Assembly (NCBI GenBank): GCA_003999685.1
Contig: CP021220.1
Location: 3,410,001 to 3,474,000, forward strand
Origin: Taiwanofungus camphoratus
Lineage: Eukaryota; Basidiomycota; Agaricomycetes; Polyporales; Taiwanofungaceae
Reading direction: 5' to 3'
DNA: 64,000 nt
Numbering within the stretch: the first letter of the stretch is position 1; the number at the start of each line of letters is the position of its first letter. Position numbers and translations under genes: made by a program. Positions 1,008-22,300 of this stretch are shown piece after piece. Below the pieces are notes generated by a model. It was not told the origin of the DNA and did not search any database. It saw nothing but the letters and a program-made list of their open reading frames with translations.

Positions 1008-1384
1008 TAGAGTGTATTTGCAGTGACCTAGGTCTCAACTTTGAACTCGAAGTGGAGCTTTTGATCCTCAAACTTGAACTCCAGTTGCTCTACTTGGTTC
1101 AAAGTATCGCTCATATGATTTAGTGGGTCTCAGGGGACAGGTTCACGTAAAGTACCACGTCGCATGTAATGGTACACTATTTACTGGGTCATAAGCTTCT
1201 TGTTGTAGTACGTTATGATAATATGATTGACTTAGAGCGCAACGCCTAGAGTGATGAGTATTAGGGGACCTACTCTGTCTGATGGTCCGATATCCGAACT
1301 TCAAACTTTCTGCTCCACTTGGTTCAAAGTGGAGCCCTCAAACTTCACTCAAAGTTAGACCTAGGTCTCTGCAAATACACTCTA
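1008..1384. mobile_element. MITE-like element with 28-base terminal inverted repeats
   Basis: The first 28 bases (1008-1035) and the reverse complement of the last 28 (1357-1384) agree at all but one position. Both ends begin TAGAGTGTATTTGCAG. If the outer TA is counted as the target duplication, the element proper starts GAGTGTATTTG, which would fit a Tc1/mariner-type insertion. Inside are subterminal repeats of the words TTGGTTCAAAGT and TCAAACTT in both halves. There is no transposase frame, so this would be a non-autonomous element of about 375 bases. It lies about 110 bases upstream of the uL1m start codon. The family name is inference. Confidence 0.75.
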
Positions 1385-1495
1385 GTATGCTGTTGAAGGC
1401 TGCTGTTTAGCACTCCGCGGTTTGGAACTCGGACCGGCAATTGCCGTTGGGTCTGACACCAGCATACAAGACTGTTTAGGAAGTCCTCTTCGACC

Positions 1496-2666
1496 ATGTC
1501 CTTGCTTGCGAATGTGAGGCTACGGTGCCGTCCGCACCATAGCTTTTTTATGCCCCTAGTATGTGTAGACATTACAATCTCTCTTGTGGCATATAACCTA
1601 TGTGAGAACTTCAGACGTGTACGCGCAGTCGGCAGTTCCACTGCAGTCAGATCGTCTTTGCGCGTCGGGAGAAGAAAGTTGCAGCTCCCTCGAAGAAACA
1701 GTTAGCTGCTAAAGCGCGGAAGAAGGGGTTAAAAGCTCGTAAGAGTATATATGACTCCGAGAAGATGACTTTGGAAGATGCAGTCGCAGTCCTACGGGTT
1801 AGTCCTCAACATCTCAGAAGTGTCTTATATTGAAAGTCGCTTGTACTTCCTAGGCTGTGGAAGTGGCATCCCCTAATGCCACTTATGAGCTTGTCGTGAA
1901 GACGGAGATGAAGAAGGGCACCACAATACCAAAAGGCCGCTTCAGCTTGCCTAGGGAAGCCAAGCAACAGAACCGAGATCGTATATTGGTGTTTGCAGAT
2001 GGCAAGCAAGCTGAGGAGGCAAGGCAAGCGGGAGCGGATATTGTCGGAGGTCCAGAATTAGTCGACGGTGTACGTCTGATCCATAATACCTTGCAGGAGA
2101 GTCGACCTCATATTTGCGACTCACCTAGGTCATCAGTGGTCGGCATCAAGCTAGCTTGTTCTTATGTACCCCGGCCCTCATTCGTGCCATTACTCCTAAA
2201 CTTGGGCGTGTCCTCGGCCCTCGAGGGCTAATGCCTTCCGAGCGGCGAGGGACTGTTACCGACAACATTGTGGGATTCATCAAAAAGTTGAAGGGGACGA
2301 GTGAGTGGAGAGGCGATAAAGCTGGGACAATTCGAACGCCAATAGCGAAGGCCAGTCTACGTTCAAAACGGATTGACAGAAACTACATCCGGCTCATGCT
2401 ATTCTGATCTCATTAGTTGCACTTCCCTCTTGAAGACGTTATCAAGAACGTGCGATATTTTCTCAGCGTAGTCAAGCGTGCTACCGGTAATCAACGGGAC
2501 CCAGCAGCAGAGAAGGATAAGAAGGACACGAGTAAAAAACCACGTAAGAAATCTTTTTCCTTCATTTTTAACAGTTGCGTAACTAAGAGGACTACTAGCT
2601 ACTGCCATTACACGGGTGATTCTGAGTTCGCGACAAGGTCCTGGTATTCAGATATCAGACGTGTAG
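1496..2666 (+). CDS. MRPL1: Mitochondrial large-subunit ribosomal protein uL1m
   Basis: Encodes the L1-stalk protein of the mitochondrial ribosome, which binds large-subunit rRNA near the E site. Five exons can be read: 1496-1558, 1615-about 1799, an exon ending at 2069, 2129-2350, 2417-2543, and a last exon from 2599. The chain includes the family signatures SGRHQASLFLCTPALIRAIT, LGRVLGPRGLMPS and EWRGDKAG, and ends LSSRQGPGIQISDV before the stop at 2664-2666. The N-terminus is basic and Ser/Arg-rich, as expected of a mitochondrial presequence. The ATG at 1496 is the first that gives an uninterrupted spliced frame, but it is not certain. The intron at 2351-2416 keeps frame only if its donor is GC rather than GT. 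The gene converges with RSM22, leaving 64 bases between the stop codons. Confidence 0.85.
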
Positions 2667-2730
2667 ATAGGACTTTTGGGATAATCTTTTGCTACAGCCA
2701 TTGAACTTAGTGAAACGGACTGACACATGT

Positions 2731-5031
2731 CTACTCCCAATCGTCTCCGACCCGTACCCTTATCCGCCTCTGCTTTCTTTTCTGGTCTCTGATGTCTGCT
2801 GAGAGCTTGCTGTAGCTTGCCGCTACTGGGATTCCACCTTTCGCCCGTTCGCCAATGTCTCCGCCCTTCGTTGATGATTGCCGCCGAGCACTGCTGGGTT
2901 GAAACCGTTGCTGAGGAGCATTCTTGGGCTCATGTGGAAATATGTCACCCCATCCAGATTTGCGTGCATCATAGTATGGTTGCTTTCCTTGTGATTTCGG
3001 TATAGTCATCCGCATGATTTTTCCTTTCGGGAATATGGACAGTCAGTCAACACATAGAACGCTTTGAAAAGACACTACCTTGGGCCGTGCAACCATCCAG
3101 AATGACATGACCACTTCGTTTCAGAGGAGGGAAGACAAGACGAGGCCAACTGTAAGCTTCTGATCTCAAAGCGGCTTCGACAGCCCCTAGATCAGGTGTA
3201 TCCTCTGCCTGCTCCGAGAGCTCACTAGAATCTGATTTTGTGGATGTGGTAGCCTTGCTTGCTTGCGGGTCCAAGACTTCTGTTTGATTGTCTCCATCAA
3301 TGACAAGCTCCGTCAGGGGTACCTGTTTGAGCGCTATCTTGTCCAATTCTCGCCGGCCCACGTCGCCAATGCGGCCCATTTTGGTACTAACTGACATTGG
3401 TCTGCTGCCTCTACGTATGACCACGTACGAATAACCTGTATCTTCATGACCGATACCTGAGTGTTTTGTCTTGCGTACAAAGGCCGGTCGCTGTAGTCTT
3501 TGTGAGAAGCCACATACAAGCTTGCTCGAACCGGAATTGTATAATGGACAGGCACCGTCATGAGGACACTGTTAAACAGCAAAATTCGATGAGTATTTTG
3601 GTTGACTACCATGTATTGCAGATATTACCGGAGCTACAACATGAGAACCTCTGACATCCCAGCCTTCCGCTTCGGGATCCTCCAAATCCTTTTTGCCCAG
3701 GCGTAAAAGGTACTCTCTAGCCTCAGCAATACAGTCAAACCCCGCGTTGGAGTTGTGGTCAATAAGGACCTTCGGCAGAGCGATGAGATCAATACCAGGC
3801 GCAATATTATTTTTTGTCATGTTCGCACTTACAATTATACCTGCACCGCTGTCCCACATTTCCTTCACAAGTGCTTTCCTTGCAAGAGGGGTAGGCAATG
3901 ATGATAACAGGAACGCAGATAACGCAAGGACATCCCCACCCTCGGATCGCCGTATTTTGTCATCATCCCGGAACGACTTTTTCCATGACACAGTCAGTCC
4001 GCCAAGGTCGACATCTTACCACACGTTTGAGGTCAGACGATTTGGACGAAATTTGAGGGATGAGCCCACCTCGTACTAGACGTTTCCCAATACTGACTAA
4101 GCCGTCCCGCTTATCAATACCCAGGTAGTTGAAGACGGTTGATTGAGAAATTTGCAAGTCGTCTGCTGGTGTTGATACTGGTATTTTTAGATCTGAACGT
4201 TTTTGAAACGAATGTGATGCTGCCCTGGACACATCTCAATCAGGGAATGGATTCAATGGTATGATAGAACACAGCGGTTTACCATAGCCCTGTGCCAGTT
4301 CCTGAGCCCCAATCGATAACTCGCTCAATTTTCCACTCTGGACCCATTCTCAGTTTGACATGATCCAATACAGCATAAATTGCGGAATAGTGAGACGGCA
4401 GCGCAATAGAGGCGAATGCAGTCCCGTCCCGCACCCCATGACGAGCAGCTTGCCGACGCGACTTATACCAGATGTCGTATGCGGAGACCCACTCTGGATC
4501 ATCTTCCGAGTCTTGAGCGAAAAGTCTTGTAGCATCTGCGTGCAGCATAGCCTTGTCTGATTCTGATACAAGATTTCAGCTTGAGGATAGAGGTAAAACC
4601 TCAAAGGTGATGGACACACCTGCGATGAGGCGAGTGATTGTCTTTCGTAACTCGAATGGTAACACGACTGCACCGATCCTCTGACTACCAAACAGAGCGG
4701 CGGGAGATTTTCTGCTCTCTTTATGGTCATAGTCTTCAACTTGAGTCGATGATTCTGCAAGACCCATAACATCTTCTGAGGAGAATGGATCGCTTGGAAA
4801 TTCCTCAAGCTCCCGGGGATTGCGCACATTTGCATATTCTGCAGAGTGGCGAGATCTGTGGCGCAAAATAGACATATCTGCGTCCTTCAGAAGCGCTTCA
4901 AACGAAGGATCGAGATCCAATGGTGCGTTGGGCTGGTGGGATGATGCAACAGAAGTTGTTGAAAAGTAAGATATATCCCCAGGTCGGCGAAGGGCAGCTC
5001 TCAGAGACCTGCTGCAGCCAGAGCGCAACAT
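2731..5031 (-). CDS. RSM22: Mitoribosome assembly factor / methyltransferase-like Rsm22 (METTL17)
   Basis: Rsm22/METTL17 proteins act in mitochondria on assembly of the small ribosomal subunit. They have a class I methyltransferase fold and a cysteine cluster that binds iron-sulfur. The N-terminus (MLRSGCSRSLRAALRR) is a typical mitochondrial presequence. Family blocks follow in order: PEWVSAYDIWYKSRRQAARH, the SAM motif ERVIDWGSGTG, a segment LRLGKKDLEDPEAEGWDVRG, then CPHDGACPLYNSGSSKLVCG with three of the cluster cysteines, and ED.GYSYVVIRRG. The exon after VVAP starts exactly at that cysteine box. The C-terminus is Lys/Arg-rich. About eight exons are joined by short introns. The start at 5031 opens the presequence and faces SAD1 across a 301-base shared promoter. 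Whether it still methylates is unknown. Confidence 0.88.
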
Positions 5032-5332
5032 GATGATAATGGAATACAGATCAACGCTGCTTCTTGGATTGTGGTGTATTGAGGGACAAGTTGGAGCCCC
5101 AAAAAGCTGCAGAGAAGTGCTTCAGTAGTAGCACTTCGTAGCTCGCATTCACAAAAGTAAATAAGTATGTACTGGCTTGGGAAAGCTTCGATAGTATGTT
5201 GCGCACGTGACCACAGTATATTGGCAACTCTTTCTCTACCTCAAGTTGTATACTTGCTCTTGCACGGAATACTACTGCTCATCTGAGAATCTTGGTGTAG
5301 TCAGCTACATTTCTGATCATAAATTTTGCGAC
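5032..5332. promoter_or_regulatory. Divergent promoter between RSM22 and SAD1
   Basis: The two start codons face away from each other across 301 bases, so both genes must be transcribed from here. No clear TATA box is placed for either gene. This is inferred from gene geometry, not from a recognised motif. Confidence 0.5.
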
Positions 5333-7332
5333 ATGACTTCTTCACGGACAAAATTTGCTTCAGATGCAGACGGAGCGAGCAGACCCTCCAAGAGAGCACG
5401 GGTAGATACAGAACATGACACCAACCTACTCTCCAGCGGCGCTTCAACGTCTTCGACAGGTCCAGGCAAGCCGGATGGACAGCTTCTTACTAGCCCTTCT
5501 GACGTCGAGGAGGACTGGGAGAAGGAAGGGGGGGTATATGAGAAATCTGAGACGAGAGCCTCTGACTTGTATCTTGACACTGTGAGTGGACGTTATAATG
5601 CTTTCGATGTTCGGCCAGAACCTAGCTCAATGTCTCTCTTAGATAAATAGGGCTGTCTTGGACTTCGATTTTGAGAAAGTTTGCTCTGTTTCCCTCTCGA
5701 ACATCAATATTTACGGGTGCCTTGTTTGTGGCAAGTATTTTCAAGGTCGGGGACGCAGCTCATATGCATATGCCCATGCGATCCATGATGATCACCATGT
5801 CTTTATCAATCTGGAAACTACCAAGGTAAGCATATCTGGCCATGCCACAAGTTTGCCTGGACTCACTTCACCGATCAAGGTCTACGTCTTACCGGATGGA
5901 TATCCCGTGTCTGATCCATCCTTAGAAGATATCTCATTTGTCCTCGCTCCGACGTTCACTCCTGCGTCTATAGCAAATCTGTCATCACCAGCACATCTGC
6001 TAAAACCTTCGTATGACCTATCTTCGAAGCCTTACATCCCAGGCTACATTGGTCTTAATGACATCAAACGAAACGACTATATGAACGTCATCGTTCACTC
6101 GCTTCTACATATACCTCCTCTTCGTGATTATCTACTACTGTCTAATTTCCGCGGCAAGGAATCCGAGCTTCTGAGGCGGTTTGCGGCTCTCGCTAAGAAA
6201 GTGTGGAATCCCCGTTTATTCAAGAGCCAAGTCAGTCCGCACGAGTTTCTGCAAGAGGTTGGCAGAGCGAGTGCGAGTAAGTTCAGTCTAGAGAGACAGG
6301 GTGACCCGGTAGAATTCCTGGGTTGGTTGCTGAACCGTCTCCACAAGGACATGGGTGGGACAAAGAAACAAAATTCCAGTGCGCCGGAACCACCAAATCA
6401 CTCTTTTCTGACGGCTTGATTGTAATCACTGCGCAGGCGTCATTTTCCGCACGTTTCAAGGTCAAGTACGTATGGAGGCACAACAAGTCGTGGTACGTCC
6501 AGACGTGGGAAAGAATGAAAAACCTAGATTCGATATAGATCGAGGTTAGCCGCAACGGTCAGGCCATGATCAGAGATCAGTTACTAAACTGGAATTACAG
6601 AGATCAAATCCACGGTTTCGCCATTCCTTTTCCTTGCAGTCGATCTGCCTCCACCGCCCCTTTTCCAAGATGCTGTAGAGAAAAACATCATTCCTCAAAT
6701 AGGTATACATTCAGTGCTTGCAAAGTACGACGGTCGTACAACTCAGGTACGTCGCGCGCGACGATGAGATGTCATACACCGCCGAGCATGCATACACACA
6801 CAGGAATCTGCCGGACAGCTACGACGCTTCAAATGTGAACGACTACCCCCGTACATTGTGCTGCATTTCAAACGCTTTACGAAGAACATCTTCGTGGAAG
6901 AGAAAAATCCTACTATTGTAAACTTTCCGCTTCGAGGGCTTGACTTTCGAGACTGTAAGTGACGTGAACGTGGTCACAAGGATAGCCATGTCTGACATAT
7001 CATTGTGCTCTGTCTCAGATCTCGATGTGCCCCCTTCGCATCCTCCCACATTGTACGATCTGATTGTAAATGTGACTCATGAATCGGCAGCAGGCACAAC
7101 CCGTGACAAGGAAAGCACTGTCTGGAAAGTGCACCTTCGCGCTGGTTCGGGAGGCGGAGAGAGCGAGAGATGGTTTCAGATCCAGGATCTCATTGTCGAA
7201 GAGATCCGAAAGGAGATGATTTTCCTGGGTGAGACCGTGCTACAAGTGAGTCATCTAAGCGCAGCTGTTTCCACACCGTCTCACGCTTATCCGCACGCGA
7301 TCCAAAAGATCTGGGAGCGAAGAGCTGGTTGA
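5333..7332 (+). CDS. SAD1: U4/U6.U5 tri-snRNP factor Sad1/USP39, inactive ubiquitin protease
   Basis: Sad1/USP39 keeps the U4/U6.U5 tri-snRNP intact before spliceosome activation. The ATG at 5333 opens a Ser/Asp-rich N-terminus with a basic KRARV patch. The first intron (5582-5642) joins DLYLDT to INRAVLDFDFEKVCSVSLSN, the hallmark start of the ZnF-UBP domain, followed by GCLVCGKYFQGRG and a His-rich segment. The peptidase-like domain starts at IPGYIGLNDIKRNDYMN; active USPs have a cysteine where this protein has Asp, as is known for this family, so it should not cleave ubiquitin. Later exons give PPYIVLHFKRFTKNIFVEE and TLYDLIVNVTHES, and end in LQIWERRAG with stop at 7330-7332. Some middle exon joints (6350-6840) are approximate. 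Confidence 0.88.
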
Positions 7333-7706
7333 TGCTTTATGTTTGCTCTGACAGTAAAATAAATAGAGATAATATCTACCCCTGCCATTGTATACGCTGT
7401 TCGAGACTGCAGCTCTCGGCTCCGTAATAGTGCGATCAAGGCTGTAAGCTTTCTACCCGGCAAGCGGGAACTTGATATGCAACCATTGAACGTTTCAAGG
7501 AACTGACTTGGATGACTCGTTGAGTTACGAGCTCGAGACTGACACAAATACGCGCGTTTCCCGGCTCGGTTGAGACGCGTATATCTTCAGATCCGTTCAT
7601 TAGCCCTGGTCGGGTGTAGATATGCACTTGTGGCCAATTGATGGATAGAGCTTACTACGCAATATCGCTGCGTGCTGGCCGTGCGCACGGACCCTTATTT
7701 CTCCTG
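7333..7706. other. 3' region of SAD1, no gene seen
   Basis: Downstream sequence of SAD1 and of the small ORF coming from the right. It is AT-richer just after the SAD1 stop (AAAATAAATAGAG near 7355), which may serve 3'-end formation. No further feature can be supported. Confidence 0.35.
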
Positions 7707-7988
7707 TCATTTTGGCACTATATCTGATTTTGCGTGAGGGACCGCCGTGTTGTGAGGATTTGCGTCGCCTTTCTGCACAGTTGAATGTCCAGCCGGGGAA
7801 CTAGGAGAGGGCGAGCTTTCATTCTGGCCATCGCTAGACCCGTACTGAGTTAACGGCATGTTGAGCAATAGACATCGTGTGGGAACCACTAACCGTGACG
7901 AACCTGACGATGGGCTGTCTTGTCCATTGCCCCGGAGTACAGGCTCAAAAATATAGAGGCCTGAAATGATTCCTGTCCACCATGACAT
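7707..7988 (-). CDS. Small hypothetical protein (93 codons)
   Basis: I do not recognise this protein. The frame opens with MSWWTGIISGLYIFEPVL, a short hydrophobic and aromatic segment, and continues into a Ser/Pro/Gly/Asn-rich tail ending HAKSDIVPK. Such a layout could be a small membrane-anchored protein. A GT...AG pair with a CGTTAAC-like branch site lies inside (about 49 bases), but removing it shifts the frame to a less fungal-looking, basic tail, so the unspliced reading is preferred. It converges with SAD1. It could be a chance ORF. Confidence 0.35.
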   Translation of the reverse strand: MSWWTGIISGLYIFEPVLRGNGQDSPSSGSSRLVVPTRCLLLNMPLTQYGSSDGQNESSPSPSSPAGHSTVQKGDANPHNTAVPHAKSDIVPK

Positions 7989-8695
7989 AAGAGTCTCGCA
8001 CTAACAATGCAGACATATTGAAAGAACTGCTACCGGTAATGCTAGCCACAACATAGGGGAAGATACGACGTGACATCATATATATCACAACTTGCTGCTG
8101 CTAGTGCCAGCAACAATCCCTATGGGATCTTACGTAATGGCCAGATCAACAAGCGCCGCTGCGCCAGTGCTGAATTTTCCTAGTCCATCTTTAACAGCCA
8201 CCAGGTCCTTTCGCAAGTCACTCCACATCTACAATTCCCAATTCACCCCATCTGTCTGGAATGCGTAGGCATTCTAATGTATTCCAAGCCAATTAGAAAC
8301 AACAACTGTATTATGCATATCACTAGCAGTACATGCTAGTAATGCGCATACATGAAAATCAGCCTGAGGTCGACATGTCAACCGATAGCGAAGGACGATC
8401 GAATGTCCTAAAAGGAAGTGGAGTCCAGCGGAATATTCGGAATGAGCGCAAAACATCTTGTTGTTTTGAGTAAAACTGAGAGAGAAAGAATAGCTAACCT
8501 CCGATCTTATGCAAGTACGACTAGACGACAATAAATCGAGGACAACCAAATGAAGATATCATTCCGAAACACTGAGATCCAAAAATTCTTCAAGTCGATA
8601 ATAATATATTGAGACAATTAGGCAAGATACGTATAGAAGGGACATGCCATCGCTGTCCTCATCTTTGACGGTGTATGCCGTTCCCCGTAGAAACC
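7989..8695. other. Gene-poor stretch at start of the accessory island
   Basis: No ORF on either strand shows a domain or convincing splice chain. The stretch holds upstream sequence of the small ORF on the left and the 3' side of the first dsRBD gene on the right. Confidence 0.4.
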
Positions 8696-9095
8696 TCACG
8701 CGACTCCTAATGACTGCAGAGCCTGAAGAGCGGCCGCTTCTTTAGCGGCACTTTTCGAGCTTGCCGTACCAATGCCTCTCGCTTGCCCACCGACTAAAAA
8801 TATGATTAATTTAGAACAGCTTACTTTACACCACTGGTAACTTACTCTTGCATATTATCGTCCATTGAAGGGCATTCGCGGGCCCCTTGGAGCTTTCTGC
8901 CCAGCTCAGGACATGCGTTTGGTTAGTTTGTTGCAAGTCTGAGATAAAGTAGCGGTAGGTGAGACATAGACACGAAGTTGAACAAGGAAAAAATACATGC
9001 GATTGTTCAATCGGATGATAGGGCCTGTTAAGCAGCAGTATAAACATCAACACTATACGAGCCTGACAATTTCTGGAAAAGGTCTCACTAGTCAT
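8696..9095 (-). CDS. Single-domain dsRNA-binding protein, copy A (83 aa)
   Basis: The protein would be almost nothing but one double-stranded RNA-binding domain (dsRBD). Four exons are read: 9095-9059, a 24-base exon ending at 9001, an exon from 8938, and a last exon with stop at 8696-8698. The total of 252 bases is exactly in frame. The product contains RLNNHLQQ (helix 1), VLSWAESSKGP and LQWTIICKIGGQ (strands), and ARGIGTASSKSAAKEAAALQ, the GxG...SK..AK..AA..AL loop and helix 2 that contact RNA. A TATA-like CTATAAATCC lies about 70 bases upstream of the ATG. The second intron (8939-9000) needs a GC donor (GCATGT). The domain is seen. Its role is not known; binding structured or viral RNA, or tuning RNA silencing, is inference. 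Confidence 0.65.
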
Positions 9096-10883
9096 TGCGT
9101 ATATACCTTGAGATTTCTCTGTGTTCGAATGGATGCTGAGCATGCCAGAGATTGCCCGAGGATTTATAGACCCGCTGCGCGTTCCACGCGGTGACCAGAC
9201 AAGAAACCTCCGGCGTAACATTCACATCGCATTCGTGTGTCAGAGTGAACCGCCGTTATGATGCGGTGCTGGGTGACCGCCCGTTGTATGTCAAGATGGA
9301 GTACGAACAGTATGTGTTGGTCTCCTGAGAAGGCTCGGGACGGCTCATATCATCCCAAACAGTGCCCTTCTAGAATTCAGACATCTGTGCTGGGAAAAAC
9401 GTGGAAATTAGTGCCATTCCTAGGGAGGGTCACTGCACAGGTAAAGAAAAAGTGAGTGTGCTAAAACAGCTCGAAAATAATAACAAAAAACCGAGTGAGA
9501 ACCGGTCCAGATTGCGGAATGCATTCTCGCAACCTTGAGAAAAAATCAAAAAACTCGCAGAGTTGTTGATGAAAAGAACCCGTGGACATTCGTTAGCCGA
9601 GTTTCTCAGCTCAGAGGCTTACTGACCCATCAAAATTGAATACTGCAGCTATGCATTCGGATCGGTCAATTCGCGAGTCACCCGATCGCGTTGTTGGTAT
9701 GAACAAACGCGGCGCTGACATAGCCGACGCGGGACTGATAATGATGGCCATGGTGTTAGCAGTGGAGACAGATCACTTGCAAAAAAAGGGACAGACTCAA
9801 GATTACGATACGCGGGTATCCTGTCCCACTAGAGGTCGACAGAAATCAGATGCAGGACACGTCCCGCACAACGGACTGGTCACCGAGAGCATCAGAAACG
9901 GCGAGCGGCTTTCTAATGCAATGCAGTAAAGCAATGCGTGTTTGAAGAAAGACAATTTGTAATCAACAACTTTCATCATATGTGATGACACTGTGATCCA
10001 GTGGAAGGATATCAACGAAGCAGACTTCTGCCTTCAAAAAAAGACGCCGAAGCACCTCGTGTATCGGCCCTTGTACACTTGTCATTAGACTTTATGCCCA
10101 CGATCATTAGAAATTGCAAACCATTGAAGTACCAACAATGTGCACGCTAGACGCCAGTCGCAGAGGAATGAGATGAGGTTCAACTCAAGTGTCCACCAAC
10201 AGGGCTCTAACTTCGTGACTGAATGCAGTCTTTCGAAAAAGACCTCTGGTAAATTCATTCGGGGGCCCTAGACCGCATGCAAAGCCTAAAGCATGATCGT
10301 TTTCAAAGATCAGTGCTGTACCGGCGAGCGTTGCTGGCTTGCAGTCTGGTACCGGGCTGCACCTTGTCACATTGGTACCATCTCCGATATTCATTGGAAA
10401 CTCTGTTCGAGCGTCTAATTGGGTCGAGCAGCCAATGCGCCGAATGTCACTTCCGGACTGACGAACTCGTGGACAGTGCGAGGGGCGGCATGATCCAGCT
10501 GGTTGTATTCTTGACTGATCGTGTACCGGTCTCTTCCGCCCGCAGCCAGCGCTACGTGAAACAGGAGATTACAATGATCGCAGACTATCTGGTCTTGAAG
10601 ATGGTCATCCTGCCATTAAGTCATTTGAAGACACTTACTTGTACATAGCTGAATATTAAGACGAACGTATCCTGAATGAAAAGATATCGAGTCTGTGTGC
10701 CTTAGGGGCAGCTCTATGAGTGAGGCGATAGACAGGCAGTAATCTGGTTATGCAACAGGGAACTGAACTTCCTGTAATAAAAATCAGTGCATGGATGCTG
10801 TGTTGCTGTTCGAAAATGATATTTGCCCTTCATTTGAGCTGCAGTTTCAGGCTACCAATTCCATAAGTAGGGCGCGGGGAAAT
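9096..10883. other. Long stretch with only weak ORFs
   Basis: It begins with the promoter of dsRBD copy A (TATA-like box near 9165). Beyond that, the plus frames 9636-9929 (97 codons) and 10277-10648 (123 codons) and the minus frame 10185-10394 are open, but none has a recognisable domain, a plausible splice chain or strong coding composition. They may be relics. A run GGTGGGGGGG occurs just after this stretch, near 10977-10987. Confidence 0.35.
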
Positions 10884-11358
10884 AGGCCTGGCTAATTAGC
10901 TCTGGCTAATTTACCTAGGTAAATTACCTGTAAACCAGATGGCCTGCAAAACATGGTACAAATTAGGATAAAATAGGGTGGGGGGGGTCTGAAAGGTTGT
11001 AGAACGAAGAAATCTGTTCACCATGGGTGCTTCACGATTGAAGTTGATACATCAATACCCTACTTTAGTAAATAGACTGTTTGCAACCATGAATGATCTT
11101 ATTATATATGGAAATTCATAAAACATCAAACACTTGCGTGACGGTTGCTTCCAGTCATCGTCATCTATGCAGTGGATGATAGGTGAACCCTCCTGGTCCT
11201 GTGGATGGGGATGCAGAACGAATGTGCTCTCCAAAGTCAATTTAACAGGCAAATTTACCGAAATTTACCAGCTACCTGCAGCCACGCCCCCCCTAAATTA
11301 GCAAATTACATAGGTCAAATAGAACTCTTACCAGGTAAATTAGCTGGTAAATTAGGCC
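10884..11358. repeat. AT-rich element built of inverted GGTAAATTAGC-type words
   Basis: Both ends carry GGCC followed by a series of TAATTTACC / GGTAAATTA words in opposite orientation: GGCCTGGCTAATTAGC at the left, and AGCTGGTAAATTAGGCC at the right. More copies (GCTAATTTACC, GGTAAATTACC, GCAAATTTACC, CTAAATTAGC) lie inside the first 60 and last 120 bases. The ends pair imperfectly, and there is no ORF inside. It abuts the TA-flanked transposon at 11367. A small non-autonomous DNA element is the likeliest reading; no target-site duplication is clear. Confidence 0.5.
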
Positions 11359-11366
11359 ATGGGACC

Positions 11367-12138
11367 TACTGTACTGGCACGACCTTAGGTTCACCGGGTG
11401 TGTGACAGCTCTAGTTCACGCCATCATAGTTCATGGCCATTGGTGACCTGTGACAGTCGGTTCATAGTTCATGAGAGGTGCCAAGGGATAATATTTTTAT
11501 TTTAAAATCCTCATGTTTATACTTGGCATTACACATGACATGATGTCAAACTCACAGGACAGCTTGACAAGCTGTGCAGCCATGCAGTTGCTCTGTGATG
11601 TAGAAAAGAATGAGCTGAAGCTCTGGAAGGAACTTAAGAAGGAATCGGGCAACACGGATTACATCAGTAATGAGGATATTGATTTGTTTGCAGGGGCCAA
11701 TGGCTTAGAGGAAGATGATGGGGCAATTCCAGAGGAAATTGTGCACACACATATACAATCAGGCTCAGGATCTCTGCCGAAAGGATTCATTCAGAAGGAA
11801 GACGGGAGCATTGCTCTGTACTTAAAGCTGGAGTCTCTTGATTACAACAATGAGGCTGCTGGTGAGCTGGTCACTGCAGATGATGATGAGGGAGTTGCGG
11901 GAGTTGCGGGACCAAGCACCAAGAGGAGGAAGCTTGCTGCAATTTGAGGTTTTTCTCCTAACGTTGTCCGTGCTGACATCCAAAACAATTTATTGGTATA
12001 AGCGCCCATCTTCAGGCCTGTGACGGTTGGTTTTGATCGTAGTTCAAGGCTGCTTGTGACGTGCGACAAGTGGCCGATTGAGTTCAGTTCAAGGGGTCTG
12101 TGACATGTGACTGAACCTAAGGTCGTGCCAGTACAGTA
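11367..12138. mobile_element. TA-flanked DNA transposon with 25-base perfect TIRs
   Basis: The 25 bases at 11369-11393 (CTGTACTGGCACGACC...) are exactly inverted at 12112-12136. TA dinucleotides flank both outer ends (11367-11368, 12137-12138), as made by Tc1/mariner/pogo-type transposases. Subterminal words such as GTTCATAGTTCATG, GATCGTAGTTCAAGG and CTGTGACATGTGACTG recur in both halves. Perfect TIRs suggest a young copy. At 772 bases it is too short for a full transposase, so it should be non-autonomous or an internally deleted derivative carrying one ORF. Confidence 0.8.
11513..11947 (+). CDS. 144-codon ORF carried inside the TA-flanked transposon
   Basis: The frame runs from MFILGITHDMMSNSQDSL to a stop at 11945-11947. 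The middle is rich in Asp/Glu (NEDIDLFAGANGLEEDDG), and the end is VAGPSTKRRKLAAI, with a basic KRRK patch that could be a nuclear signal. There is no DDE catalytic segment or helix-turn-helix that I can see. It may be the leftover C-terminal end of a transposase, an accessory protein, or a captured fragment. An inner ATG (11531) is also possible. The frame is open over 55% of the element, more than expected of a plain MITE. Confidence 0.5.
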   Translation: MFILGITHDMMSNSQDSLTSCAAMQLLCDVEKNELKLWKELKKESGNTDYISNEDIDLFAGANGLEEDDGAIPEEIVHTHIQSGSGSLPKGFIQKEDGSIALYLKLESLDYNNEAAGELVTADDDEGVAGVAGPSTKRRKLAAI

Positions 12139-12435
12139 TTTCCCTAGTCCGAGGAGTTTGATGCAACACTAAGCAAACGGCAGACGTCAACGGAAATAAC
12201 CGTGTCATATCGTACATTCTGGATCTCGAACTTCAGATTTGAATACATCTAGCTTCCAACCAGGCCGTTCCGAGGTGGAAAATATATTCTAATATGTATA
12301 TTTTGATACAACTAGATAGTAATCCGGAAGCAACCTGAAACCTAATGCGGTCCGAAGTCTATTCAGAACTGCTAGTAACGACATTTGAGAAGAGAGAAGT
12401 TAGCCATCCAGGGACTCCGAGCAAGAGTATACTCT
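12139..12435. other. Spacer between transposon and dsRBD pseudogene
   Basis: AT-rich sequence (for example ATATATTCTAATATGTATATTTTGATAC near 12281-12306, read as short AT runs). No ORF or repeat of note is present. Confidence 0.35.
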
Positions 12436-12683
12436 TCAAGGTACAAGTTGCGTAAGCTTCTCTAAAGCCACCTTCGCTGCTGCGTCTCTAGCAATATGCT
12501 TCTGGGCTCCATGACCGACTCCACATTCCTGCCCGTCAACTATTAAACATGTGAATGAATAGAATATACAAGGATTGATTGGACAGTATAATTTTACATA
12601 TAGACGTCCACTGAGGGAATGACGAGGACCTCACGTTGATTCATCCCGGCTCAGAAGGGATAGCTTGTTCTGCGACTGAAGAT
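12436..12683 (-). pseudogene. Decayed dsRNA-binding domain gene, copy B
   Basis: The last exon (12436-12539) is intact and reads DGQECGVGHGAQKHIARDAA followed by AKVALEKL, the second half of a dsRBD, with stop at 12436-12438. The exon before it starts at 12683 behind a proper acceptor and encodes LQSQNKLSLLS and then DEST, but an in-frame TGA follows. The GPRH and FPQWTSI blocks that must join it lie in different frames, so there are at least two lesions. The intron between the exons (GTAAAA...AATAG) still sits at the same place and phase as in copy A. No first exon was found. It shows that the family has been turning over here. Confidence 0.6.
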
Positions 12684-14054
12684 CTGTCGACAAAAGTACG
12701 TAGGATGGAATAAGATAGTAACAGTATGCGCACAATTATTGAACGCAACAGCACCCTCTGCATCAGGCAATTTGTCGAAATGGAATATAGCAAAAAAAAA
12801 GAAAATTGACGGACCGTTAGACATCTCTAGTGCTCTGAGACTAGAGGTTTCAAGATCCCATTGGTATTATATGCGGAAGACTCTATTCCATGCTTTTCTG
12901 CACGTTTTCATTAAGAATCGTCGAGCTCACCGCAGATGATAGAAAGGAGCTTGACTCTATAGGCGACAGGGCGAAAGAAGTCCATCAATAATACAAGCTC
13001 ATAGGAACCTTATGCAAGGTGCATCACCGCAACATCCCAGTGATTAGGCAACTAGGACACCATTGATATCCTCGAACGGATGGATCCTATAGTTTACATC
13101 ACAGCAGGCTGGAGCCTAGAATGGATATGCAAGACTTTCATGCTGGACGATCTAGGAGCGGCGAACCAATCTGTCAACGACCAATGACCACACGCAAAGG
13201 AGCCATGAACGCACACGACTTGATATTTCGAGCTTCGATTACATGAAGCAGAGCATAAGTGCGGCGCGGTTGGGATGTCGGTGCGGAGTGACCAACATGA
13301 ACAGTCGACCAAGGCCATATTTGCATTGAGAAAGGTGTAAAGGTGATGAAATATCGTTCTTCACGAATGCCAGCAGGCATCGAATGTCAATGAGGGGTCT
13401 TTCAAGTTCATACCCGGCCTGTAGATGAATGCTCGCTCCCGCGAGTCGAGGGTTCGGAGGGAGTAGAAGAGATCTAGATGTCAGGAGTAGATCAATAATA
13501 ACCTCTAACCCAGTCTGTTTCTGTCTTCTGCCGTGAATGCCGTGATGAGGTGATGCGCCAATGAGAGTCTCTGCAATTGGCATTGTTTGCCTCCACCCTG
13601 AAGCATGGTAGGTACATGCATGTTGGTGTACACCGTCCAGGTAGCTTTGAAGTGGAAGCGAAGCAAGTTCCACAGCGAACAATGTTGCATTAGTAGGCGC
13701 GATCAAAGGGTCAATGTTCAACGCTCAACGCTTAACGTCCAATTGAAGGAGTTTCCTATTCGGTCACTGCACCTTGTGATTGCCGGAAGTCGCCGAATTT
13801 TATGATGCCGGATCCTCCTCTGCTACTTCACTAATACCGTATGCACGGTACATAGTATGTCGAGCTGAGGCAGAGTGTTCATGAACTTGATCCTCATCAA
13901 ATTCACAAGCGGTGACGTGAGTAAATTCGTCGATAATGACAATTAGAGCACATGTACTAATAATTCAAGGCAGTTTCAAGAGATCATAGAATGGACTAGA
14001 GACCATAACAGCAGCTAACGAAAAATTGTTGAGAACCTGAGAGCAAGGAACTTG
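12684..14054. other. Stretch with weak ORFs between dsRBD copies B and C
   Basis: The longest frame is a 160-codon minus ORF at 13239-13721, beginning MNIDPLIAPTNATLF. It has no domain I recognise and includes many Leu/His/Arg codons. It could be a relic of a gene or chance. No exon chain linking it to other frames can be defended. Confidence 0.35.
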
Positions 14055-14410
14055 TTAGCCCCCGCGCTGTCCGATAAGTGTTCGGTAAGCCTCTTCAGCA
14101 GCTTGCTCCTTTGCACTACCCTGATTCCTTCCGGTTCCTCGTCCGTGCTCAACCTGGCGAACTGGCGGACGCAACAAACGGATAAGCGGAGACCGGAAAA
14201 AGCAAGACAAATACACACTATAAGCGATAGCTAACCAAGTCGGATCATGACGCGGGCCTGTCGAAATCATCTCCCATGACAATACATTGGTTCCATAGCT
14301 CGCTTGGAGATAATTATTCAGCTGCGTTCTCCAATCTGGATCAGAGAAGAGTCTGTGAGTATTGTAGTAGGTTATGAAGAGCGATTCTCAAATTTACGTT
14401 CTGAAGACAT
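14055..14410 (-). CDS. Single-domain dsRNA-binding protein, copy C (76 aa)
   Basis: Three exons (14410-14398, 14335-14217, 14153-14055) with GT-AG introns give 231 bases exactly in frame. The product starts MSSEHWRTQLNNYLQASYG, continues VLSWEMISTGPRHDPTW and LAIAYS, and ends with the block VEHGRGTGRNQGSAKEQAAE, then EAYRTLIGQRGG. This is a complete dsRBD: helix 1, the GPxHxPxW strand 1-2 turn, the GxG loop, and the SAKEQAAEEA helix that grips the RNA groove. There is nothing else in the protein, no catalytic or targeting domain. The start context ATCGGGATGT is good and TATATATAAATTG occurs about 70 bases upstream. It shares the size and domain layout of copy A, on the same strand. Function is unknown. 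Confidence 0.75.
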
Positions 14411-17033
14411 CCCGATGAGCTTTGATGGTGTTTGAATGATATGTCGTATCTCTTCGTCGGGGTCAACAGAAGCTCAGCACGTCTTATATATAAATTGGAA
14501 CCATCCCAAGTAGCATCTACCACGGTTTCTCACATCCTGATATACCAAGAATGATCGTTGTAGTCATACGGTCATGAAGCTCCACCGGAATGCAGAGCAA
14601 AGACGTCAACAACGATATCCGGAAATCTGAGGATAGCAATCTTGCATAATTGATACGTGCAAAGCTACCCATTAAGTGTGCGCCTTGGACCTGCACGCAC
14701 GGAATCAGCGCAAGGTACGGGGACACGAATAGGAATGCACATACCCGTACGTGCCTTAGTTGGATGCTGAGCATAGGGAGCGGACATATGATGAGTGGGC
14801 ATTCATTGATAATATCCTTACACTCCATCTGATGACTGAAACACGTGTCTGGAGCTTACTGATGCAGGACGAAGACGGGATGCCCCTTGAAAGCCAAACG
14901 GGGGATTGATTGCCTGGCAATGTATATCTTCAACGTACATCAGCTATCTGCAAAGTGACATCGCCTCATGAACTTGAGGACGCATCTGCGAAGATCTCAG
15001 CAAACGCGGAGACAATGATATCATGAGTCACTTGAGAAGGTATGACAGGTGGATCGACTAAGGCCCGGATTTTCAGAGTTGGAAGGAATTGCACGACGGT
15101 ATCCGCATATCTAACGGCGCAGCTAATGCATTACAACTTCCTCAGTCTCCTACATGTTTGAAATGAACACCGACGGTAAACGAAAGACAGACTAATACAT
15201 ACTTTGACGCTTCCAGATATACCAAGTTTCAATGAGAAAGTTTATGTGTTGGATCGATGCACATTATAGCATTGACATTGGCCCAATCGCCTCATGCGAG
15301 GCCTATTCGTACAATTGACAGTCGTAGTTGCAATCCAATTCCCTCGGAACACTCTGATTTTAATGGGTGATTGAATAAGTGACATAGGCTGTGCATCGCA
15401 ACAATGACGTCTTCTTCGTTGTCCTCGAAGCGGAAAGCCAGCTGAAGGATGTATTCAAAGCTAGCGTAACCTGCACACGACCTCGAATGGATTAAACGAA
15501 GGTTCACAAATAGATGTGGGTGTGGTAGTCATCGTAAGATCCTCAATTTAGGGAACACGATCACGACGGGACCTACTTATCGCACGAAAAGTGACGCCGC
15601 TTATCCTCTTTCAGGGGCAGATGATAGCGCATGAGGACAACGTCACCAACGCAGGAGCCACGCCTTGCTATGGCACAAAATGAAGAGTGACATGAACACC
15701 ATCCGACAGGCCCTATACCGCTGGTTACAATTTGAATGCAATAACAATTTTAAATCCCGACATCTAGCCCTGGGCGGCTGGCATGGTGAGATTATAATGT
15801 AGTTCTGGTTGACGATAACCATGACGCTTGCAAGGGCTATCCAAGGTCCCCGCTCATGCATCACTCCCCACGCAACTCTTTAGTGACCGAGATGGCGTTT
15901 GTAAGTAGACAGAGATCAGAAAGAGTACTCGGCACTTACATTACAGCTGAATCGCCGGCAAATACCATGGTCGCAGGGAGAGTCCGCGAGCGGAGCGCCA
16001 CCATATCCCGAATCGTGAGCCGATGAACTATACGCCACCTTCGACGAGTTTCGCTGTATGAGTGCATGCGTTCCCGCTTCCCACGGAGACGTGACCATCT
16101 GCGAGCCATCCGCTTGTCGGACTAGATCGTAGATGACGAATGGACGCGCAAACCAAGAAGCTCACCGACGGAGCGCTCAAAATTGCTATAATGTCGATAA
16201 GGAGTCAAGAAGATAGCCGGATAGAGAACGCCCAAGCATACTTTGGGTAAGTCAGTCGTAAGGTCGGTTCTGGAAACGGATATGGATAGGTAACTAAAAC
16301 ATTTTGCAAGCACTTCTTCAGCAGTGGAGACACACGATTTGACACAATCATCGGAGCAACACCAAACTGAAGTCGATGATCAGAGACACTACATCGGGAC
16401 CGCGCCTCGAAGGTGCCGCAGAATCAGTTGACACAAAGCTGGTATTTTAGAGCGCCTGTGACAGGTAGACGGTATAAGCGCGGGGTGAGGGATGCTACAA
16501 ATCAAGGAGTGAAACGCACCATCTACGCATGTGCATAGTTCGAAAACTGGACAAGTAGAGAATGATTGATGTAGGATGAATGATGAAATCATTAGCAAGT
16601 GAGTTACGCTTATTTCACGAGTACCGCCGGCGTCAACACCGAACTCAGACTGTGGCAGCGCGCCGGAATAACAGGTAAGTCAGCCTGTGATTTTACGATG
16701 GTTGCACTGTCCGACCGCACATCGGACGAGCCTGAGCCAAAATTGTCCCAAGACCCTCGAAACGCAAAATGTATCCCAGGCGTAAAGAGACGCTGAGTGC
16801 ACAGAAAGACCGGAAAGCGGTGTTCTGGTGAACCAAATACTCATTATAACTCCTCTTAAGGACAATAGGTGCTTACCGCTGCGGCGGAACTGTCTCCTCC
16901 GAGTCGTATGCCCATATAATTGGTGTACACGCAAAAGTCACGCACACCGCTGCAGGCTGTGCCATGAGCTGAACACTGTTTCTGATATGGTTATCCGCGA
17001 GTCTGGTTCGCCATGGACAGAGTGTAGTATCCT
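14411..17033. other. Unresolved 2.6 kb with broken open segments
   Basis: On the minus strand several open segments look coding: about 15090-14950 (ending DIIVSAFAEIFADASSSS), 15507-15292 (FEYILQLAFRFEDNEEDV), 16098-15916 (SPWEAGTHALIQRNSSKV) and 16350-16270 (CCSDDCVKSCVSTAEEVL). I could not join them into one protein or name a family. They may be exons of one or more lineage-specific genes or relics. The plus strand has a strong-looking donor (ACAGGTAAGT) at 16673-16682 after a 25-codon open piece. Confidence 0.3.
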
Positions 17034-17234
17034 CTAGAACTTGGACTTGGACTTATCGGTCTCGCCGCTGGGCGAGCAGCGATCTGTCAATAATGTGCGC
17101 TCGACGGCTAAATGCGGGCCGTGTGGCGTGGAAATCTGGCCGCCCAATTCGGAGAGGTCCGCCTCGTCGAACGAGTCGAGCTCATCAGCGCTCTCATTTC
17201 CAGTCGTGACAATCGCCGTCCCTCTTGCCCCCAT
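17034..17234 (-). CDS. Small acidic hypothetical protein (66 codons)
   Basis: The frame begins MGARGTAIVTTGNESADELD, is rich in Asp/Glu/Ser over residues 13-32, and ends SGETDKSKSKF. It is divergent from the G-beta gene with a 312-base gap. Composition looks more protein-like than chance, but no family is recognised. It could instead be the last exon of a gene extending left to right on the minus strand, since no promoter can be told apart from that of G-beta. Confidence 0.35.
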   Translation of the reverse strand: MGARGTAIVTTGNESADELDSFDEADLSELGGQISTPHGPHLAVERTLLTDRCSPSGETDKSKSKF

Positions 17235-17546
17235 TTGCCCCCTCCTGCCCTCCCCCCTGCTCGAGGGTCTTATTCTCCAGCTAGTATTAACTTGTTTCTA
17301 GCCCGTTGTCGCTTACTGATTGGTCTCGCTAGCGTCAAAGATTGGTCGGTGTTCCCACGCAAGCTTCCATCAATTGCCGACTTATTTCTCACTTGCCTTC
17401 ATTCCTTCCGTCCCCTGCACGGTGCGCCCCCTCTCCATGCCCACACTTTTTTCAGCACGGTGGACTAATCGGGCATCTTCTCTAGAAGCACAGGGACTTT
17501 TGTCTATTGACTATATCCATTTCTCCGCTATCCAAGTCCGAAAGCC
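17235..17546. promoter_or_regulatory. Promoter and 5' leader of the G-beta gene
   Basis: Long CT-rich runs (CCCTCCTGCCCTCCCCCCTG near 17240 and CTTGCCTTCATTCCTTCCGTC near 17390, taken in parts) and a GATTGGT box (ATTGG, reverse CCAAT) at 17317-17323 precede the start codon. Pyrimidine-rich leaders of this kind are usual for highly expressed basidiomycete genes. The transcription start is not identified. Confidence 0.45.
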
Positions 17547-18814
17547 ATGGCTCAGTCACCACAGGGAGATATCCAGGAGAGGATCGCTGCAGCGCGTCGC
17601 GAAGCGGAGAGCTTGAGAGAGAAAATTCGGGCAAGGAGAGAGTCTTCGGCTGATACGAGCCGTTAGTGTGGTTTTCTTGTGTCTATCAACCAAGTGCTTA
17701 ACGTCCACTACAGTGCGAGCAATGGCCGCAGAAGTTGCCGCATTGCCTCGCATCGTGATGCGTCCCCGCCGCGCTCTTCGGGGCCATTTAGCAAAGATCT
17801 ATGCTATGCACTGGGCTACCGACCGGCGGCATCTCGTGTCTGCTTCGCAAGATGGGAAGCTGATCGTATGGGACGCGTACACGACGAACAAGGTTCACGC
17901 CATCCCCCTAAGGTCTAGCTGGGTTATGACCTGTGCCTACTCACCATCCGGTAACTACGTTGCTTGTGGTGGTCTCGACAACATCTGTTCCATCTACAAT
18001 CTTCACTCGAAGGAAGGCAACAATGTCAAGGGTGCTCGTGAGCTCAGTGCACACTCCGGTTACCTCAGTTGCTGCCGTTTCATCAACGACCGGCAAATTG
18101 TCACCAGCTCTGGTGATATGACCTGTATGTTGTGGGATATCGAAGCTGGCGTACGGGTGGTAGAGTTCAGTGACCACACTGGTGATGTCATGAGGTAGGA
18201 GACGCAGGTGCTCTCTAGCTCTATCCTCACTGACAATGCGTCTTTCAGTCTGTCATTGGGTCCTAATCAAAATGTATTCGTGTCCGGTGCATGCGATGCT
18301 ACTGCTAAGCTGTGGGATATTCGCAGCGGCAAGGCCACGCAGACTTTCACAGGTCACGAATCAGATATCAATGCTGTAAAGTGCGTACATCAAGATTTGC
18401 CAACGGAATGTTATTGACTATTCCCGTCAGCTTTTTCCCCAACGGCGATGCCTTTGCCACCGGGTCTGATGACGCGTCATGCCGTCTCTTTGATATCCGA
18501 GCTGACCGGGAGCTGAATGCTTTCACTCATGATAACATCCTGTGTGGCATTACCTCGGTCGCGTTTTCGATTTCTGGTCGCATTCTCTTTGGCGGCTACG
18601 ACGATTGGACTTGCAACGTGTGGGACACCTTGAAGGGTGAACGTGTGGGCGTCTTGACAGGTCATGAGAACCGAGTCAGCTGCTTAGGAGTCAGTGCAGA
18701 CGGCATGGCACTTTGCACGGGCAGTTGGGACAGTACACTGAGGGTTTGTGCTTAGTAATTGGCTGACATATATCAGCACGCTGACAAGTGTCGACACCAC
18801 AGGTCTGGGCGTGA
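17547..18814 (+). CDS. GPB1: Heterotrimeric G-protein beta subunit
   Basis: G-beta forms a dimer with G-gamma at the plasma membrane and relays receptor signals, in fungi mainly pheromone and nutrient cues. Five exons: 17547-17661, 17714-18194, 18249-18380, 18431-18743 and 18803-18814. The N-terminus is the G-gamma-binding coiled coil ([20 protein letters not shown]). [20 protein letters not shown] follows, then seven WD40 blades: [20 protein letters not shown]..., [92 protein letters not shown] and a final VWA stop supplied by a 12-base last exon. Length (about 350 residues) and sequence match the canonical family throughout. Confidence 0.95.
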
Positions 18815-19389
18815 TATCTCATCTATTACAATCAAAGAATCCGGTATCATACCTGACATTGCTCGATCGCTCACCCTCGCTGGAACACCATTCGCTGCCC
18901 CAGTATATTGACATCTGTCATTTTATATGGATAAATTTTACTGCTCGCCTGCGTTCCTCTATCCGATGGACGCCTCGAGTCTGTCCTTACAGCATCCTTA
19001 GTATCCTCTTTTCATTATTACACGGAGTGGCATTGTGTTCTTGTCTCATACATATTCTTGCTCGTACGGTCTCTATTCTGATGCTCTTCCTGCTGGTCAC
19101 TCTGCTCTTTAAGTATATTTGAACCTCATCCATCAAAACTGCAGAATTCGGTTTTTGTCCTCATACATCACATTGGTTTATGCTATTCACCGCTGAACGA
19201 ATCGTCAACATTAAATATTGAGTATTGAAGACGCGCCGACCTCGTTGTCTCGATCGGGCGTCACGTGCACCTCATTCGTGTATTCTGGTCTCATTTCGAC
19301 TGTACGTGGATGCTGCGTGCTTACCTCGGAAGGTCCTACTTCTCTTTGAGCCATTGTTGCAAACGGCTATTGATTTCCCGTTCTTGAGA
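18815..19389. other. Intergenic: G-beta 3' end and golgin promoter
   Basis: Sequence just after the stop is TC-rich and then AT-rich, with no ORF of note apart from a Leu-rich chance frame (18748-19122). The right part (about 19150-19389) must hold the promoter of the coiled-coil gene. Confidence 0.4.
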
Positions 19390-22300
19390 ATGTTCGAAGA
19401 TGACCGTGCCGCCAAGGCCGCCAGAGCGCGGGCGTTGGTACGTCGCCTGGGGATACCGACAGACAGAGGAACTCATGCGCGCCATGTTCTATGTATGTGC
19501 CAATATAGCTCAAGAAACGGCAGCAGCAGAAAGCCGCTGGCGGCGCTGCTACCTCAAGTCCAACCGTTGTGTCTCCGAATCTTCCGCCCTCACGAACGTT
19601 CTCTCCTGCCCCATCCGAGGTGTCCTCAACGCATACTAAAGATGAAAAGGCTGGAGGTAGTCTAGGAGACCTGTAGGTACATATTGTACTCTGCCCTGTG
19701 TTGAAGACCCTCTCAACGTGTTCACGATGTGTTATGCCACTCAGGTTTGCGAAGACTCCGGTCGGAAACGGGTCAGATGCCAGCTGGTTGTCTTCACTGA
19801 CTCGAGTCGAGTCGCCTCCACTCCCAGTGGCAGAATCCATTGCTCCTACCATTGTACCATCCGTGCCAGCGGTGGAGAGCTCTTCTCCTGTGTCTTCTCA
19901 AGTCAAGCACGAACGGGAAGACCTTCAACGTACTATATCCCTATTGGAATCGGAAAAGGTGTCGTTAACCGCGTCTCTCGAGCGTTTCAAACAAGCGGAG
20001 TCAAGTAAGATTGATTTTTTATGAGTGGTAATATGCTTCAACCAGGTAATAGAAGCGCAGCAATCACACGAGCAGCAGCTTCAAGAGGAGCGTCGAAGAT
20101 TTGAACAGCTTCAAGATACAATGCGTCATATGGAAGCCAACGTCAATGACCTGTCCGACAGTGTCGCGCAGCGCGAAGCTACTATCGTGTCACTGACTTC
20201 TGAAAAGGCCGCCTTGGCTCGGGTTGTCGAACGACTTAAAACGGCCGAATCAAGTATGTATTCATCTCTAAGTTGTTCGGAAGATGCGCTAAGGCAGGAC
20301 TTATAGAGGCACAGGAAATGGATATAGCTCTCCACGCTGAACAGAACACTTCTCAAGTATTGAACGGCCGCATACGGGAGCTCGAAAAGAACGTGCAGGA
20401 GTACGCAGGTCGAATTGAACAGCATCAACAGACTATTTCTCTGTTGGTGTCAGAAAAGGCGTCTCTGACGTCTTCGCTGGAACGTCTCCAAGATGCTGAC
20501 TCGAGTCAGTGCTCGACCTTTCCCTCGAGGATCTCATATTGAAAACTGAATTTACCAGAATTGCAAGAAACACAGCAACTATTCCAGGCCCAACGTTCAA
20601 ATGCCGAACGACTTCAGCAACTTGTAGGCAAACTAGAGCAAGAAGTTCATAACTCCTCCGAGACACTAGCACAGCTCTCTGCCAGTGAGAAAGAGGTGTC
20701 CGAAAAGAGCCGTGAACAGGTGTGTTCATATTCTATCCTGACATCGGTGTTCACTGAATTGCTACATGCAGGAACGGGAAATTCAACTTCTGACAGGCAC
20801 CGTGAGTGATCTACGTATGCAAGCGGAACAGTCCAATCGGAGAGTGCGAGAGTTGGAAGAGCAAATTGAGAGCGATGACCGAGCAGAACGCTTGGAAGCC
20901 ACATTGCAAAATACCCAAGATCGTGCTGATGAGCTCGAGTTCCAGCTTTCAAAGCTTCAACAGGTACGTTTCTCTTCCTTGGATATTGGATACGATTCCT
21001 CAGATGCGTGCCAGGCCCACAACACTCTCAAAATCGAGCGTGACGAGTTCGTAGTTCAACTCCGCCAGCAGGCGGATGCAGAGGCGGACTGGCGAGGTCG
21101 CCATGCAGAGGTCGAGAAACAACATGCTGCGACACATGAACAGCTGTCAGCGGTCACTTCGGAGAGAGATGACCTATTACAGGCTACATCCACGCTCCAG
21201 TTACGGGTCGCAGAGAAAGAGAATGCGGTAGCTGAACTCGAACAGGGGCTGGCGACTATTGCGACTCAACTGACCGCTGGCGCTCGACAACTGCAGCAGG
21301 CACAACTGGAGTTGAAAAACGCAAATAGACGTGCCGAGGAGGCCGAAAGGATCCAGAAGGAACTTCAGGCCGAGGGCGTAGGGCTCATGCGTTCTCTCGA
21401 CGAGATGCGCCCAAAGATTATCGAGCTAACGGACGTCAAGTTGAACCTCGGAGAACAGGTCGAAAGCCTGGAAACCGCTTTGCGTAGTCGCGATGCGACA
21501 GTCGCACAGCTCGAAACCAATTTGGAGGAGTTACGACACGAGAAGGAAAACGTGGAGCGACAGAGGCAGGAACTCAGTGTAGCATTGGAGAAGGAGCGCT
21601 CTTCCTCAGATGAAAGCACCGCAGAGTTGCAGAAGGCATACGCTGGATTGCAGTCGGAACTTGAGGAGACGCGAGCTATCATTCATGACCTTGAGAGTGA
21701 AAGGACCAACTATCACCAGATGGCAGATCGTCATTTCGCAGAAGTTGACCGTCTGACATCCTCACTACAGTCGCACATGGAGCAGCTTGCTTCCTTACGC
21801 AACGAACTGGACGAACGCCAACGTGCGCAGGACGAAGCTCAGGACTTCCTCGAGCGTGCTCACGGCGAGACGGAGGCCCTACGCGCCGAGTTATTATCAA
21901 GGGGTGAGGAGATCGAGCGTCTCCGAGAAGCTGCTTCTTTGCCTTCCACACCCGGGCCCCATTCTTTAGACGAGGAAATGCTAAGTGCTCTCAAACAACA
22001 GCATTCGCTGGAGATGTCTACTGCCCAGTCCCATATGCGGACGCTGGAGACATCCGTGTTCCAGGCCGACGCAAGAGCTCATGCGCTTCAGAAACAAGTC
22101 GCCGCGTTAGAGGACCAACTTGCACATCTACGCTCCTCTTCCAGGACCTCGCAGAGATCGCAACTTCCCCAACGCCCCTTAAGCCGGAATGTCGACCATT
22201 CGGACGACCTGCGGCGTGCCTCGTTCACTTCTCACAGACCGTCGTCACATCTGGCTCCACCATCAAACCTCCCATCTTTCGACGGATTGACGCCAGAGAC

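Follow-up and report, generated by a model that had tools for sequence, protein, structure and literature searches.

Predicted small single-dsRBD genes of Taiwanofungus camphoratus belong to a dispersed family without the paired clamp lysines

Double-stranded RNA-binding domains (dsRBDs) have many roles, and in the plant proteins DRB7.1 and DRB7.2 one such domain stands without a catalytic domain. Fungal silencing has been described mostly through Dicer, Argonaute and RNA-dependent RNA polymerase (RdRP). Here we describe small genes, each predicted to encode a single dsRBD, three of which (A, B and C) lie on the minus strand of a 64,000-nucleotide stretch of Taiwanofungus camphoratus DNA; this window corresponds to C1:3410001-3474000 of a 33.2-Mb, 15-contig genome. 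Set beside DRB7.1/DRB7.2 by description only, the fungal products are alike in having the dsRBD as their sole domain, whereas the fungal genes occur in several copies, start with very short exons and encode an eroded phosphate clamp. The cited section of PMC8138440 says that DRB7.1/DRB7.2 sequester dsRNA precursors with DRB4.

The regions of a dsRBD that contact RNA are given, in the section of PMC11309768 used here, as a helix-1 glutamate, the KKxAK motif and the GPxH loop. The KKxAK lysines contact the phosphate backbone (PMC5852647, in the part cited), and in HYL1 regions 1 and 3 matter most (PMC4237382, likewise in part). The same section of PMC11309768 describes type-B dsRBDs, which stabilise complexes and are conserved at the C-terminal end only. 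The fungal products resemble canonical dsRBDs (PF00035; PKR, TRBP, Staufen, RNase III) in their profile match, the GPxH loop and a C-terminal helix with conserved A-A, but in all six intact copies the K-K pair is replaced, there is no second domain, and the models span just 75-82 residues.

A dispersed family of small genes

Genes A and C and pseudogene B are almost certainly part of an old, dispersed family of small genes whose products each consist of one dsRBD. The members are as follows, with positions in the window unless a contig is named.

14055..14410, minus strand: gene A, predicted 76-residue single-dsRBD protein, exons 14410-14398, 14335-14217 and 14153-14055; spliced in frame, dsrm match, paralogues
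12436..12824, minus strand: pseudogene B, remnants by alignment to copy G at 12824-12815, 12757-12734, 12683-12592 (broken) and 12539-12436 (open); TGA, frame change, donor GT missing
8696..9095, minus strand: gene C, predicted 75-residue single-dsRBD protein, exons 9095-9059, 8938-8846 and 8793-8696; spliced in frame, dsrm match, relative on contig C6
C1:3042087-3042449: copy D, 82 residues, apparently intact
C1:3054057-3054399: copy E, 78 residues, apparently intact
C4:2932143-2932512: copy F, 79 or 81 residues depending on the acceptor, apparently intact
C6:1052817-1053214: copy G, 77 residues, apparently intact
near C5:2570198: copy H, broken by an internal stop

The original prediction of three stand-alone single-dsRBD genes at this place is upheld as two intact genes and one decayed copy. 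A and C splice in frame, as had been claimed; of the sizes then given, 76-83 residues, the lower figure holds for A, whereas the upper could not be reproduced and C comes to 75. A longer model of C, with an extra exon like that of G, was rejected since it breaks the frame when read by eye. The profile search that had been proposed as a check places both products above the Pfam dsrm cut-off of 23 bits, A at 24.6 bits (E = 3.9e-5) and C at 39.7 bits (E = 7.5e-10).

B is a decayed copy that keeps its last exon, also as predicted. It carries an in-frame TGA at 12633-12631, a one-base gap relative to its closest intact relative, G, that changes the frame and, in addition to what had been reported, TT in place of GT at the homologous splice donor. 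Its open last exon alone scores 20.3 bits against dsrm (E = 8.2e-4), below the cut-off. B matches G at 164 of 230 exon bases and at 67 of 153 intron bases, and this higher exon identity indicates that B remained a coding gene through much of its past.

The genome was searched with five queries (A, C, G, D and F). Because this search scores only the best candidates, copy counts are lower bounds; it yielded at least six intact (A, C, D, E, F and G) and two broken copies (B and H). D, E and G were modeled by an exon-chain search and F by hand. Scored against whichever of A and C matched better, these four reach 194 (D), 204 (E), 153 (G) and 221 (F), whereas the highest score among 150 random 480-base stretches from window positions 15000-63880, put through the exon-chain search with up to about 4000 chains each, was 48. 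Five of the six intact models exceed the dsrm cut-off, with E at 32.6, D at 35.6 and G at 31.8 bits, whereas F falls below it at 20.7. The profile matches span helix 1 to helix 2, dsrm is the sole family over its cut-off in these products, and a profile built from the six intact copies matches the dsRBDs of PKR, TRBP, ADAR, Staufen and RNase III in a PDB set.

Such a family is easily overlooked because its genes are small and split by introns; a six-frame dsrm search of the genome gave two matches, neither of them a family member. Mushroom genomes commonly contain automatic entries named 'DRBM domain-containing protein', under which members may already be catalogued, undescribed. In the open-licence full-text literature we found no description of a fungal single-dsRBD family of this kind.

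The predicted models form two subfamilies, one of which comprises A, D, E and F. Its members begin with a WRMQLNNY-like sequence (WRTQLNNY in A) and have a phase-1 first intron after four or five codons; the second intron occupies a similar position in all four, in phases 0, 2, 1 and 1, respectively. C and G share an ICKI/GGQ region and a phase-1 last intron, and B, which reads ICK...DGQ there, goes with them. The first exon is an identical 10 bases in G and B and 37 bases in C. The trio in the window thus mixes both subfamilies, which disfavors a recent tandem origin. What had been called a turning-over cluster stands as regards co-location and the decay of one copy; a recent tandem array does not fit a dispersed family in which A and C belong to different subfamilies and are 37% identical with saturated silent sites.

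In every one of the 15 pairwise comparisons among the six intact copies (with the 81-residue model of F), nonsynonymous differences per site are fewer than synonymous ones (pN < pS), and third codon positions are the most different. For 12 pairs the synonymous rate (dS) is saturated; for the remaining three, the nonsynonymous rate (dN) and dS are 0.28 and 2.64 for D-E, 0.43 and 1.83 for A-D, and 0.45 and 1.21 for A-E, giving dN/dS of about 0.11, 0.24 and 0.37. With old divergence and a silent excess together, the copies have the look of coding genes under constraint rather than of recent tandem duplicates.

In the models, the second introns of A (14216-14154), D and F are 63 nucleotides each and contain no in-frame stop, so that retention would insert 21 in-frame residues between strands 2 and 3. 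The three inserts are dissimilar, and the corresponding intron of E is 52 nucleotides long. The open introns may reflect chance or be exitron-like.

The RNA-binding residues

The K-K of KKxAK is kept in none of the six intact copies, and four lack both lysines. The clamp region reads NQGSAK in A, NQGAAK in E, SQGAAR in D, SQNAVK in F, SKSAAK in C and QRHIAR in G; aligned to PKR, ADAR and TRBP, the pair is replaced by Q-G in A, D and E, Q-N in F, K-S in C and R-H in G. The third basic residue of the motif (K or R) is retained in all six, and the GPxH loop in five (A, D, E, F and G), whereas C reads GPAN. What appears new here is this combination, the predicted loss of K-K throughout, with both lysines gone from four copies, while the loop persists in five.

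The net charge of the family products is -1 to +3, the upper value being that of C. For comparison, a K-K-keeping dsRBD protein at C2:2224755 has +5, and a piece at C1:2581299 has +3, so that C is not below the latter.

Judged from these predicted products, the pattern fits neither described class. The KKxAK that marks canonical type-A domains occurs in none of the six. Type-B domains, represented by TRBP dsRBD3 (TTREAAR), are similar in their conserved C-terminal part and in a region 3 without K-K; however, the family match extends from helix 1 to helix 2 rather than covering the C-terminal end only, GPxH is kept in five of six copies, and the cited type-B domains sit in multi-domain proteins.

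Other dsRBDs of the genome were seen alongside the family. A Dicer-like gene at C7:2028723-2029757 ends in a dsRBD-like region that reads SQEEVK at the clamp and likewise lacks K-K; it aligns with the family over 20 columns only (hhalign probability 26%), which makes it at most a candidate source of these genes, and, unlike the family, sits after RNase III domains. The domain at C2:2224755-2224979, with provisional gene-end borders, is apparently stand-alone, reads STKKAAK, scores 43.9 bits against dsrm and matches, weakly, C, G and D only. By eye, the one at C1:2581299 is the terminal part of an RNase III gene, yet it lies outside the eight Ribonuclease_3 matches described below, and that at C1:1775480 lies within a 937-residue, helicase-like frame.

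Possible roles

The missing lysine pair predicts weak or partner-dependent binding of dsRNA. Because the minor-groove loop is kept and the phosphate clamp seems to be lost, the proteins would bind dsRNA weakly when alone and may act as homo- or heterodimers, perhaps partnering or competing with Dicer-type enzymes and so setting the amount of dsRNA that enters silencing. We give about even weight to this proposal, that they are weak dsRNA binders or dimerizing adaptors that tune RNA silencing, against all others together. Silencing machinery is likely present, since, grouped by position, Piwi matches occur at about seven places in the genome and RdRP matches at six, and eight Ribonuclease_3 matches occupy five places, three of which hold two neighboring domains as in Dicer.

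Upstream of the start codons, six of the seven copies A-G (B included; H is outside this set) have a TATAWW motif 40-110 bases before the ATG, against a local background of about 0.10 per 70 bases. TATA-type promoters would suit inducible expression. Those in the window are:

14487..14492, minus strand: TATA-like box of A, 82 bases before the ATG
12866..12871, minus strand: TATA-like box of B, 47 bases before the ATG
9163..9168, minus strand: TATA-like box of C, 73 bases before the ATG

A bolder version, which we put forward as doubtful, is that a fungal multigene family without the phosphate clamp might supply diffusible modules that dimerize or serve as adaptors, controlling Dicer-type enzymes in trans and adding a minimal and possibly inducible form of silencing control. 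More generally, one-domain dsRBD proteins under constraint, in a genome that also has the Dicer, Argonaute and RdRP families, would form an accessory layer of fungal silencing that has been overlooked.

Several observations weigh against these readings. The intron-exon models of the family are predicted, and the differing second-intron phases of A, D, E and F make their exact borders uncertain. For G, the exon-chain search ranked first a two-exon model that begins elsewhere; the four-exon model ranked second was chosen because B has the same first exons. Structure prediction without an alignment gave only helices for A, with a confidence (pLDDT) of 55; the input was the unspliced frame 14055-14387, running from exon 2 through intron 2 to exon 3. 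Part of this chain is encoded by the intron, and the result tells little for or against the fold. Clamp loss is not uniform, in that C retains one leading lysine. D has no TATAWW box, and the 40-110 interval was set after the sites had been seen. Moreover, blastn and Pfam scans of the family loci revealed no common neighbor gene that links the family to silencing. Of the window frames of at least 130 residues, 21 of 75 went through the Pfam scans, as did 19 of 45 frames of at least 150 residues in five family loci, and the scanned neighbors had no domain family in common; blastn of window 5000-18000 against eight loci returned only the inverted-repeat element described below and two gene pairs, B-G and D-E.

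A serious rival to a tuning role is that these are, as originally proposed, ordinary monomeric dsRNA binders, sequestering transposon or mycovirus dsRNA. The dsrm match, the GPxH loop in five copies and the third basic residue in all six are what such proteins would have, and contacts from helix 1 or the loop might make up for the clamp. The absence of K-K from every intact copy and a net charge of -1 to +3, against +5 for the K-K-keeping protein on contig C2, speak against it, and we regard it as unlikely. The dsRBD identity assumed in the original prediction is sound, but plain dsRNA binding is weakened by the same two features. Quite unlikely, too, is a role without any link to silencing, for example in RNA localization, translation or RNA processing: dsRBDs are versatile, and no neighbor or fusion at the scanned loci points to silencing. 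Nothing specific contradicts such a role, as the silencing genes of the genome provide context only.

Two of the eight copies are broken (B and H), as would be expected if the family were a relic of past use, with A and C decaying as well and making no functional protein. Six open models and a silent excess in every pair over long divergence make this improbable. Least credible is that the genes are captured silencing suppressors of a virus or selfish element, comparable to the dsRBD suppressors of insect viruses. The small, single-domain products and the existence of viral dsRBD suppressors (PMC4231766, in the part cited) recommend the idea, but two scans of a viral collection found no relative of A or C, the genes contain introns, and the copies share no mobile flank beyond a multicopy element. 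Tuning of silencing by weak or dimerizing binders thus remains the reading to which we give most weight.

Surroundings of the genes

In the window, the dsRBD loci are bracketed by a ubiquitin-hydrolase gene (5643-6416, plus strand; UCH and zf-UBP) and a G-protein beta gene (17617-18752, plus strand); a chitin synthase gene adjoins copy F and, together with the short introns, fits a fungal source. No RNA family scored above its gathering score in window 1-20000. One repeat lies between C and B, outside the genes:

11369..12136, no strand assigned: inverted-repeat element, 768 bp, with 33-base arms that are 94% complementary and TA flanks (by eye)

One end of this element has 20 genomic matches among those listed, itself included. 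Its internal 151-residue frame (11492-11944, plus strand) has no Pfam match. Another copy of the element end lies near G; we considered dispersal of the family by this element, but since it is multicopy the idea is unsupported. The original description of the genes as lying beside transposons thus applies on a small scale, to this one TA-flanked element. Nearby, window 10900-11330 contains repeated, partly palindromic TTTACC/GGTAAA words (by eye) and is perhaps a small mobile element or a remnant of one.

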